From contig CP043547.1 in the NCBI GenBank assembly GCA_009664345.1, forward strand, positions 3,252,709 to 3,316,708: a stretch of DNA of 64,000 nucleotides, written 5' to 3'. This DNA comes from Planctomycetales bacterium 10988. GTDB lineage: Bacteria > Planctomycetota > Planctomycetia > Pirellulales > Pb10988. This document shows positions 27,141 through 32,554 of this stretch, one piece after another. A program made the position numbers and the translations under genes. How positions within the stretch are numbered: position 1 is the stretch's first letter; every line of letters begins with the position of its first letter. The notes beneath the pieces are model-generated. The model saw nothing but the letters and a program-made list of their open reading frames with translations, was not told where the DNA came from and made no database searches.

Positions 27141-27147
27141 GTCTAGG

Positions 27148-27231
27148 TACCGGAGGTGGGACTCGAACCCACACGTCCTTGCGGACACTGGATTTTGAAT
27201 CCAGCGCGTCTGCCAATTCCGCCACTCCGGC
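27148..27231 (-). tRNA. tRNA-Leu (anticodon CAA)
   Basis: The minus strand starts GCCGGAGTGGCGGAATTGG, has an anticodon stem CTGGA/TCCAG with loop TTCAAAA (anticodon CAA, codon UUG), a long variable arm (TGTCCGCAAGGACGT) and a T arm GTGGGTTCGAGTCCCAC. It closes with CTCCGGT plus discriminator A. 84 nt, class II cloverleaf; the CCA end is not encoded. Confidence 0.96.
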
Positions 27232-27398: not shown

Positions 27399-28634
27399 TT
27401 AATCAAGCCATTGCCGGGGGCCGGCCTCGAGGATTTCCGGGACGTAAGTTTCGGTGACGTAACTCACATCGAGACTGATGAGGGCTTCCACTTCCAATTT
27501 GAATCCATTGGCTAGCAGCGTGTCGATCTCTTTGATCCAACGTTTCTTTCCAGAGAACCAAGGATACTGTTTAATTTGCTCGGCCCGGCGGCGGTCCGTA
27601 TCGTTTAAATTAATCTTTACACTGTCAGACAAACCGCAACGATCAAAATCGCGGGCGCGCAGGCCGATGAATTTTGCTTCAGGAATCGCCATTCGTTGGG
27701 ATTCATACGCCAAGTTGATGGAACCTTGTTTAATGACACTATAAATATAATATCCCCAGGGATCATTATCGAGTAAACAATAAACAGGCAAGTTCAATTC
27801 AGAATTTAAACGACATAATAAACGTCGCACCCCACGCGGTGGCTGTCCGGAACCATGCGTTAATATACAGTTGTGTTCCTTCCAAAATTTATCTTCATTA
27901 AAGCGACGCCAGACGGTATCTTTTTCTACATGTAAAACAAACTTGGCATCGCACTCTTTAAATTGAACAATGTCATCTTCGACGATAGAAGGAATCCCAT
28001 ATCCCCCGGTGCCCATTCGAGAGCAATCAATTTCATCGCCACTGTCGACAATGGTAATCGGACCGACCATCGTACCCCGCGATTGGGCATAAACATGAAG
28101 TTCTTCCCGCAAGGCATTTAAAGTGACCTCTACATCTTCAATCATGGGGTCACATTCGCTCTGCTTCGCGAAGGTTTCTTCTTTCGTCCCTTCGATGGTA
28201 TGTTTTAACATGTAATACAAACCCCGAATACTGGTCGTTTTATTTTGGTCGATCAACTTTTTACAGCCGCTGGCAACGAGGATCATTTGCATGAAGCTCT
28301 TCGCCTGAGATAAATTAAAGAGTTGGCGTTGACTTTTATTTTTTCCTAGTTCAATAATTTTTCGCGACTTATTATAGTTGACATTCGCTTGTGTTCGAAT
28401 TGGAATTTCAAGGGTTGGATTCCGTTTTCTCTCTGCCGCTTTGACAAGTTGATCCGCAAGAGACATTAACAATTCATTCGTTTTTTCGTCCCGTTCGCGA
28501 TGTTTCGCTTCGGCCTCGGTTTCCGCGGAGGGGTCTTTCTTTGATTCGTTAGCCACTGTATTTTCCTTCAAATGAAGTGTCAGATTTTCTTCGTGTTTAT
28601 CTGAAGATGTAGATAACCACTGGCTCTTAATCAT
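27399..28634 (-). CDS. top6A: DNA topoisomerase VI subunit A (Spo11/Top6A family)
   Basis: About 411 residues; the DNA-cleaving subunit of type IIB topoisomerase. The 5Y-CAP domain has the catalytic tyrosine in SIRGLYYML (residue ~140/141). The TOPRIM domain has [13 protein letters not shown] (Glu ~237) and [14 protein letters not shown] (Asp ~289 and ~291), which bind Mg2+. [14 protein letters not shown] and [11 protein letters not shown] are also conserved in the family. An N-terminal charged extension of ~60 residues is longer than in archaeal enzymes. ATG 28634 overlaps the Top6B stop by eight bases; a TTG at 28652 is an alternative start. Coding is visibly A/T-richer than neighbouring genes. 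Confidence 0.95.
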
Positions 28635-30612
28635 CTCGTTCCGATTTGACAATTAACACATTCTCTCCCAGGTCCATTTCCGGCTCTTCAACCACTTGGC
28701 CGCTTTCATCGAATTGCATATCCGCTTCGGCAGTTTGATCCTTTGCCACTTGTAATAATTGAGAAAACAAGTCTTCGCGATCGCACCCATTGAGCGAGTG
28801 GACGGCCTGGGCAACCTCTCCTAAATAACGTTTAAAAATTTGCCGGCGTTCGCCTTGATGTTTCACTTTCTGACGACGTCGTAAATACATGCCGAGCTTT
28901 CGCCCTACCCCTTGAAGAGCCAAACGCAACTCTTTTAAAATTTCAGGATAAGAGGCTATCGCTTCTTTTGATTCACTCGTAAACGGCACCCACACACTTG
29001 CCAAGTGAACCATTAAAGTGATCGGACCGTTCGGCATCGAACCCCGCGACTGACTCAACCCATACGTTCGCCAATTGAGTTGCATCACAGCTTGCGTCAC
29101 CGCACAGGCCCCCGGTTGAAAGAGTAAAGGCACCCGATTGGCATATCGATAAACATTACAACTTTGGCTCGCACTTAAATTAATTCCTTGCATCGCTTCA
29201 TGAAGTCGTTTCCGCTCACGTGGCTTCATTTTACTGGGTGAAGTTCTTACTTTTAATTCCGCGGCTTCAATAATATTATTCGCGCCACTTGTGCCGATGC
29301 CATCGAAGTTGGTTGTTAAAAATTGTCGCAAAGTTCGCGATTCAGTTTCTGACAACATTTCTTCCAAACCATCCAGGGAAACCTTTCGCACAGGAGGCGT
29401 TCCACCGTAAGCTAAAGCCGCTTCAATTTGGAAAGGATTGCCGCGGTAAACCGCCGGCGGTCGCGTCACGGCCACATAAAATTCAGCCGGAACAACATGA
29501 TGTAAACCTTTTAACAACTGATCTTCACCGATCGCGGAAATACAATCTGTATTGGGTGCGGAAATTTTTGTACGTTGAATCGCTTGATAGATCGCGTCCG
29601 CTTCTTCTCTTCCAATCTTTTTCGTGTTGGCATTAATACGAACGTTTGCTTCGGTAACGATCTCTTTGGCCACGTTGGGACTGACCCGAGAAAAGGCTTC
29701 CGACAAGAACGAAGTCAACTGCATTGATTTGGAATGTTTCAACATATAAATCAAGGTGCCAAGTTCAATTCCATACGGATGTGGTTTAATTTCTTCCGCT
29801 TCCGGCGGCAAAACTTCACTCGCACGATGGTAGAAAACTTCACGCCCATCCGGTGGTAAATATTTAATTTGAGCATGAGGATTGGCTATCGCGGTCTGTT
29901 CTAAATATTCATCAACACTTCCGCGACCACGGTGATATTGAGCTTCCATTTCAATCGTCACCCGCGTTCCATGAGAGACGGGTTCCCATTCAATTTCATG
30001 ATCTTGTAGAACTGCTTGGCCTACTTCTCCATTGGGAATATCAATTCCATTTCCATCTTCGTTTAAAATTTCCGGAGTATTTAATTTGGTATTGATTTGA
30101 ATTTCAAAATAGTGGGCAGGACGACCTTTGGAAGTTTTCGAAACAACCTTGACCGGCTTCCCGGTTGTCAACATTCCATACATTCCCGCGGCACTGATCC
30201 CGATCCCTTGCTGGCCACGGCTCATTCGCAAACGATGAAACTTCGAACCATAGAGCAATTTACCAAAGATTTTGGGAACTTGCTTTTTTACAATTCCAGG
30301 ACCGTTGTCTTGGATGGCAACGCGGCACCTTCCACTTCCAGTGTTAACAATGTTCACCCAAATATCAGGTAAAATCCCGGCTTCTTCACAAGCGTCCAGC
30401 GAATTATCCACCGCTTCTTTGACCGTCATCAATAAAGCTTTCCGCGCACTGTCAAATCCCAACAAGTGGCGATTCTTATGAAAGAATTCCCCAACAGAAA
30501 TATCTTTTTGCATCGCCGCCATTTTTTCGGCGGAGCTACGTCGTTTTCTCGTCTTTTTTTCTGGAGCCGGTTGCGGCTGTCCATTGACGGACTCTTCGTT
30601 GGTTTCCCCCAT
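28627..30612 (-). CDS. top6B: DNA topoisomerase VI subunit B (GHKL ATPase)
   Basis: 661 residues. A basic N-terminal tail (KKTRKRRSS) precedes the Bergerat ATP-binding fold: N-box [10 protein letters not shown] (~66-75), G1 DNGPGI (~102-107) and G2 [17 protein letters not shown] (~131-147). A transducer domain follows with the region around [16 protein letters not shown] and later VNRVPLL-like [17 protein letters not shown]-terminal acidic tail ends the protein. It drives ATP-dependent strand passage with Top6A and is encoded directly upstream of it with overlapping frames, so the pair is translated together. GAGG lies seven bases before the ATG. Topo VI is standard in archaea and plants and uncommon in bacteria. 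Confidence 0.96.
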
Positions 30613-31573: not shown

Positions 31574-32005
31574 ATGTATCAACCATTTGTTACACGATTT
31601 TCTCTACGGATGCTCGGCTTAGGATTGGCGTTTACGTTTGTCAGTCACCTGATGTCGACGGAAGCTTCCGCACAAACTCCTATTTATTCATCCTACACGG
31701 GATCGCCCGAAGTGAGTGGTGAAATTGTTTATGAAGGGGTTGTCTCCGGGGATGTCGTTTATGAAGGCGACACGAGCTATGGCGGAGTTGTTTATGAAGG
31801 AACTCCCGGTGTGGTAGGTTCGCCTTACTATGCCCCTTCTTCCTATGGCTATGGAACGGGGATGTATCCTTCGCCGCATTGGGTTCCTCCTTATACGGGT
31901 TGGACGTCGATCACTTATCCGCCGTTTGCTCCGCATCATTATCTATGGGTTCATGACCGTGTTTGGTCCAATGGCCGCCGACATGCTGTTGTTCACTATC
32001 GCTAA
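31574..32005 (+). CDS. Small secreted Tyr/Gly/Pro-rich protein with VYEG repeats
   Basis: 143 residues. A signal peptide ends near STEASAQ. Three VYEG repeats follow (EIVYEGVVSG, DVVYEGDTS, GVVYEGTPG), then a Tyr/Pro-rich stretch and a basic C-terminus (HDRVWSNGRRHAVVHYR). No enzyme motif. Such proteins are common as cell-surface or matrix components in planctomycetes, but I know no defined family. TAAGGA precedes the ATG. It lies 130 bp before a second protein of similar type and probably shares its transcript or regulation. Confidence 0.7.
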   Translation: MYQPFVTRFSLRMLGLGLAFTFVSHLMSTEASAQTPIYSSYTGSPEVSGEIVYEGVVSGDVVYEGDTSYGGVVYEGTPGVVGSPYYAPSSYGYGTGMYPSPHWVPPYTGWTSITYPPFAPHHYLWVHDRVWSNGRRHAVVHYR

Positions 32006-32134
32006 ACAAGAGCCGATTGTCACAAGTGTTTTGAATGTGTGGAATTAGAAATTGTTTAAACTCTGCGATCTTCAATTTCAACAAGATACTTTTCTTGTGG
32101 CAATCAACTGACTAACCAGAAAACGAGGGGATCG

Positions 32135-32554
32135 ATGAAAGGCTTCTTGAAATTATCGTTGTTAAGTTTCGGCGTGGTGTGCGTCTTCGCCGCCGAGGGC
32201 TTTGCTCAAGTGCCATGTACCAATTGTTATGGGGGCTATGGCTACGGCGGGCATGTTCATTCTTCGCCTGCCTTACCGGCTCCGACCGTGTATGATACTT
32301 GGCACGGTGCCTACTCCCATCCCGGCTATGGGCACCCGGTGGCTTTGGTCGTCCCTCCAATTTCCCAACGCCAAGGGGATTACAGTTGGGGAGTTCCCTC
32401 CACGCATACTTCTCCTATCTACCCGCAATTCGGCCCTTACGGTGGTGGCGGAATGGTCGGCGGGGCTGGATACGGTGGATTCATGCCCGCCCCGGTTTGG
32501 CCGAGCCATACCAATCAAATGGGTGTCTATTATGTTCGCGGTCCTTGGGACTGA
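32135..32554 (+). CDS. Small secreted Gly/Tyr/Pro-rich protein
   Basis: 139 residues with a clear signal peptide (KLSLLSFGVVCVFAAEGFAQ). The mature part starts VPCTNCYGGYGYGGH, with a CxxC pair, and continues rich in Gly, Tyr, Pro and His (GPYGGGGMVGGAGYGGFMP), ending GVYYVRGPWD. Likely an exported structural or surface protein; the function is unknown. GAGGGG gives a strong ribosome site. It is followed by a strong terminator. Confidence 0.72.
   Translation: MKGFLKLSLLSFGVVCVFAAEGFAQVPCTNCYGGYGYGGHVHSSPALPAPTVYDTWHGAYSHPGYGHPVALVVPPISQRQGDYSWGVPSTHTSPIYPQFGPYGGGGMVGGAGYGGFMPAPVWPSHTNQMGVYYVRGPWD

Follow-up and report, generated by a model that had tools for sequence, protein, structure and literature searches.

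The topoisomerase VI (topo VI) enzymes of Methanosarcina mazei (PDB 2q2e, 9o0g) and Saccharolobus shibatae (2zbk) are built of two subunits, Top6A and Top6B, whose domain order and whose catalytic and ATPase residues are like those of the pair described here. In the M. mazei enzyme the H2TH domain touches the bent G-segment, the contacting basic residues being R263, K268 and K308 (PMC5922973), and the sensor of the T-segment is a KGRR loop of the cavity (PMC5922973; PMC13040014). Allen & Maxwell (2024) have already described the topo VI of the Pirellulales, the absence of topo IV from these bacteria and, in Top6B, a ‘unique alpha-helical bundle’ (PMC11302465). They suggest that topo VI makes up for the lack of topo IV; in their published AlphaFold model of the Pirellula staleyi enzyme the bundle lies within the central cavity. 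The topo VI of P. staleyi and Thermogutta, from genomes in which gyrase is present and topo IV absent, belongs to the same clade as ours and is the same enzyme. The bundle was not recognised in that paper as a duplicated H2TH domain, nor was a class-wide reciprocal pattern with topo IV reported.

How does the present locus compare with these? The window, by which we mean the whole stretch of 64,000 nucleotides that was analysed, belongs to a genome of 6.65 Mb assembled as a single contig. Between positions 27399 and 30612 both genes run on the minus strand in the order B-A and overlap by a few codons (table 1), as had been read from the sequence originally. Top6A measures 417 aa when counted from the first possible TTG at 28652, with an ATG at 28634 as the alternative start; its true start lies between these two codons, or later.

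Table 1. Features of the topo VI locus and its neighbours (positions counted from the first letter of the window).
Feature	Position	Strand	Remarks
top6B, topoisomerase VI subunit B	28627..30612	-	661 aa; GHKL ATPase, H2TH-1, transducer with inserted H2TH-2
top6A, topoisomerase VI subunit A	27399..28652	-	winged-helix Tyr147, TOPRIM E243/D295/D297
H2TH-1, canonical Top6B H2TH domain	29566..29772	-	aa 281-349
H2TH-2, duplicated H2TH domain within transducer	29179..29385	-	aa 410-478
Top6A catalytic tyrosine Y147 codon	28212..28214	-	TTG-start numbering; invariant in alignment
Small Gly/Tyr-rich ORF	32135..32554	+	divergent from top6B, beside which it is conserved in Pirellulales
tRNA-Leu(caa)	27146..27231	-	downstream neighbour in window; outside the topo VI system

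Is the pair a genuine topo VI? Both open reading frames are intact and score above the curated cut-offs of the NCBIfam models for Top6B (E 5.8e-206) and Top6A (E 1.8e-160), in keeping with the original prediction of a complete topo VI in a bacterial chromosome. Against the PDB, Top6B finds its M. mazei relative (E 3e-145) and Top6A its S. shibatae relative (E 3e-75); the identity of Top6B in structural alignment is about 46-48% to M. mazei and about 30% to S. shibatae. The catalytic residues named in the prediction (the Top6A tyrosine, the TOPRIM residues, and the N, G1 and G2 boxes of Top6B) are present and invariant in our alignments. R143/Y147 of Top6A and its TOPRIM residues E243, D295, D297 and G300 are intact and invariant, the alignment holding 20 sequences, in all of which Y147, E243, D295 and D297 are found. 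The N-box (E66/N70), the G1 box (D102-G-P-G106), the G2 box (G133-Q-Q-G-I-G138) and the switch lysine K549 of Top6B are likewise intact, and E66, N70, D102, G104, G106, G136, G138 and K549 do not vary across 58 aligned sequences. H2TH-1 aligns with the H2TH domains of M. mazei and S. shibatae and sits between the GHKL and transducer domains, an arrangement that sets the B subunit of topo VI apart from TopoVIB-like proteins. In topoisomerase VIII, A and B are fused in one polypeptide. That enzyme is found on free or integrated plasmids (PMC11302465). The window pair, on the other hand, consists of two ORFs, is chromosomal and occurs order-wide. We conclude, from these sequence comparisons, that the pair is a genuine heterotetrameric topo VI (type IIB). 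Cleavage by Top6A, through Tyr147 and the TOPRIM Mg2+ site, should follow the archaeal mechanism, as should the ATP-gated dimerisation of Top6B.

Where, then, does this Top6B depart from the archaeal enzymes? The transducer of the Pirellulales protein carries a second H2TH domain, which the M. mazei and S. shibatae enzymes lack and which the original prediction, sound as to the complete topo VI, had not noticed. Top6B relatives from other classes pass from ‘...AYGG’ directly to ‘RYANRVPL’, or have a short low-complexity linker between the two. In 20/20 order loci examined and in 58/80 named loci there is a co-linear insert here, about 80 aa long. Aligned by hhalign, the insert family and Top6B’s own H2TH match over 69 ungapped columns (98.8% probability, E 1e-16), whereas control stretches outside the H2TH region reach at most 0.4%. 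The window insert, taken alone, has as its best NCBIfam match positions 242-312 of the Top6B model (E 2e-12); for one relative’s insert the S13 and Fpg models rank after Top6B. Among all PDB sequences the insert profile finds Top6B H2TH domains best (E 4e-9). Both H2TH copies have the same helix pattern in an AF2 model of full-length Top6B (mean pLDDT 83), and a model of the insert alone (mean pLDDT 86) superimposes on M. mazei Top6B 234-314 with Z 15.2, TM 0.87 and rmsd 0.9, the Z for MutM/Fpg being about 9-10. Since the sequence profiles, the PDB searches and the separate AlphaFold model agree, we conclude that the insert is, in sequence and predicted fold, a duplicate of Top6B’s own H2TH DNA-binding domain. 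It corresponds to the P. staleyi bundle that protrudes into the central cavity (PMC11302465). The enzyme is thus a known one in a new structural variant, the new point being the identity of the bundle as an H2TH duplicate. Neither this identity nor the reciprocal pattern with topo IV at the present scale was found in the literature; our search largely left subscription papers and preprints uncovered, and priority is not assured.

Could the insert have come from elsewhere? Pfam matches it to NFACT, S13 and Fpg, with no Top6B-specific H2TH model among the hits, and the fold would allow a loan from any of the three; Top6B’s own H2TH is nevertheless the best match in NCBIfam, in PDB sequence and in PDB structure, and we rejected such a loan. 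An insert at the same site in archaea was also rejected, since no long gap opens at this position in the archaeal-type Top6B models. Split transducer matches in one family (f54; G112, G137, G157) turned out to be unrelated low-complexity linkers. A different, charged low-complexity linker was seen at the same transducer site in the Top6B of loci L092-L095 of that family.

How old is the duplication? In a Top6B tree from which the insert columns had been left out, the carriers fall into one group with support 100; on this phylogeny the duplication arose once. The two copies within one protein are about 28% identical, and across the order identity is about 54% for H2TH-1 and about 54% for H2TH-2. 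These values indicate that the duplication, which sets the Pirellulales apart from the archaeal and plant enzymes, is ancient, and that H2TH-2 is under constraint comparable to that on H2TH-1. R426, R456 and F431/F436 of H2TH-2 are invariant, R429 and Q430 are kept at 90% or more, and G438 and G440 are invariant or nearly so; H2TH-2 also has a GxG turn that resembles those of Fpg and S13. The G-segment contact residues are not kept: M. mazei R263, K268 and K308 correspond to T433, G438 and N478. Judged by this loss, H2TH-2 does not simply copy the G-segment interface of the archaeal H2TH. Its net charge is +1, against +4 for H2TH-1.

The original prediction held that bacterial examples of topo VI are few. 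Members of the Top6B transducer family occur in 53/57 genomes of the order Pirellulales and in 172/294 sampled genomes of the phylum. The window is assigned to this order by its relatives at 62-66% Top6B identity, which bear the labels Pirellulales, Lacipirellula, Aeoliella and Thermoguttaceae. What had been framed as a rarity is a wide, vertically inherited bacterial clade, already described (PMC11302465). When the pair was sought at the same locus in related planctomycetes, as had been proposed, locus and neighbours proved to be conserved across the order; two small divergent ORFs border top6B throughout, and one of them is also upstream in the window. In some Pirellulales top6A is not adjacent to top6B; its absence there was considered and rejected, the gene being found elsewhere in those genomes. 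We conclude from the order-wide presence, the conserved neighbours, the lack of a conserved tRNA and the lack of phage or covering bacterial-plasmid matches that Top6 is an ancestral chromosomal gene pair in the Pirellulales, encoding a housekeeping enzyme. The window itself has two small Gly/Tyr/Pro-rich ORFs (31574-32554), the family of the second adjoining top6B across the Pirellulales; the ORF at 32135..32554 matched no Pfam family. Pirellulales-type Top6B with H2TH-2 was also seen in MAGs labelled Deltaproteobacteria or Acidobacteria (L117, L125, L128, L150), through either mislabelled bins or transfer.

What might such an enzyme do beside gyrase? The check for gyrase that had been proposed found in the host a single GyrA, whose GyrA box is canonical, and a single GyrB; a second pair of the GyrA/GyrB type (topo IV) was not found in its genome. 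Among the sampled genomes of the class, those with topo VI have a single GyrA/ParC gene (15/15) and those without it have two or three (37/37). Across the phylum, where as in the class the genomes counted are not independent and drafts can miss genes, two or more GyrA/ParC genes occur in 13/172 genomes with topo VI and in 79/122 without. A family-stratified test of topo VI against GyrA/ParC number gave an exact one-sided P = 0.003, and switches between topo VI and topo IV are seen inside several families. Because 13 genomes with topo VI from elsewhere in the phylum have two or more GyrA/ParC genes and 43 genomes without it have one or none, topo VI is not the sole substitute for topo IV. In one family (f52) 21/26 sampled genomes have a single GyrA/ParC gene and no topo VI; gyrase is apparently their only type II topoisomerase.

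Within the order, only one sampled genome of the complementarity set (G052; loci L109, L110 and L201) is without topo VI, having neither Top6A nor Top6B. It has gyrase plus topo IV; its ParC is without a GyrA box, and its second B subunit has its best match in the topo IV-type B subunits from sister orders (54-57% vs 42-46%). This genome may have kept topo IV or may have regained it. In two draft assemblies of Pirellulales (G026, G035) no Top6A or Top6B was detected and only one GyrA/ParC, which may reflect an assembly gap or a true gyrase-only state.

Since the host has a single gyrase and lacks topo IV, and given the class-wide reciprocal counts, the topo VI of the Pirellulales most likely performs the decatenation of topo IV. 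The counts agree, on a larger sample, with the suggestion made by Allen & Maxwell (PMC11302465). Topo VI would decatenate DNA and relax supercoils alongside gyrase, taking the position held by topo IV in other Planctomycetia. Topo IV (ParC/ParE), with which it presumably shares the role of decatenation beside gyrase, is of an unrelated type IIA architecture, replaced in the Pirellulales by a type IIB enzyme.

Some bacteria manage with gyrase alone, and the 43 genomes just mentioned have at most one GyrA/ParC gene and no topo VI. Might topo VI then be a specialised or redundant enzyme, serving recombination or DNA-repair breaks in the manner of Spo11, and no substitute for topo IV? We consider this unlikely, for the complementarity with topo IV is strict in the class and recurs within families, and the full ATPase/H2TH/transducer machinery is conserved, whereas the partners of Spo11 are without it (PMC11302465). 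Far less probable still is that topo VI is part of a mobile element, or a recent horizontal arrival at the tRNA-Leu site. The original prediction had raised mobility on account of the tRNA-Leu and an integrase remnant; both are real, several IS transposases also lie downstream, and local GC falls to 0.43-0.47. The tRNA and the remnant are, however, local neighbours. The tRNA is present in 0/20 relative loci, the remnants, seen from top6A, are situated past it, and a search for an att-like repeat of the tRNA-Leu 3' end found none. Phage searches with Top6 gave no match, the plasmid matches covering most of Top6B were all haloarchaeal, and PADLOC reported no defence family. Topo VI and its upstream neighbours are, moreover, kept across the order, and conserved synteny and single-clade inheritance rule out a mobile origin for this lineage. 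As to the neighbourhood itself, the window between 21000 and 27000, downstream of the tRNA-Leu, holds a cluster of IS transposase genes and pieces of such genes (DDE_5, DUF4096, DUF772) and the tyrosine-recombinase-like remnant (about 26.2-26.9 kb), which is frameshifted, visible only as broken frames and without a Pfam match.

What would H2TH-2 contribute to the enzyme? It lies in a loop between two transducer strands, which by the P. staleyi model would put it in the central T-segment cavity. There it would add a DNA contact, helping to capture or sense the T-segment or the DNA crossing. This is the simplest inference, and its main rival is protein docking: H2TH-2 could be a structural spacer or a docking module, with for example Top6A, the opposing Top6B or a partner as its target, and make no contact with DNA. 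The loss of the G-segment contact residues and a net charge below that of H2TH-1 speak for this alternative, which we regard as possible though rather doubtful. H2TH folds are, against it, mostly nucleic-acid binders; the Fpg/S13-like GxG turn and the invariant or nearly invariant arginines, phenylalanines and Q430 of H2TH-2 also count against it. So does the Top6B of a Myxococcota MAG (L181:3941-5803, one metagenome contig), which has at the same transducer site a ribosomal S13-type H2TH (Pfam S13 E 1.4e-9), suggesting that nucleic-acid binding there is useful. That domain is apparently an independent insertion and, as far as this one contig goes, supports a site-specific benefit.

Overall we think it likely that the Pirellulales have a housekeeping topo VI standing in for topo IV, with a duplicated H2TH that adds a DNA contact in the cavity; we infer the decatenase role in vivo as well as the DNA binding and position of H2TH-2. 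A fuller account, in which the order decatenates its chromosomes with a two-H2TH Top6B (four such domains per enzyme), H2TH-2 serves as a sensor of the T-segment or crossing in the cavity, and the site has gained an H2TH at least twice independently, is offered tentatively, its chances falling a little short of even.

That bacteria should have topo VI at all has been called a puzzle (PMC11302465). Its repeated one-for-one exchange with topo IV, a pattern to which the genome with topo IV and no topo VI (G052) belongs, makes the substitution hypothesis testable by genetics. The duplicated H2TH would be a natural experiment in how topo VI senses DNA crossings: an additional DNA-binding module with a predicted place in the T-segment cavity, open to deletion or transplantation.
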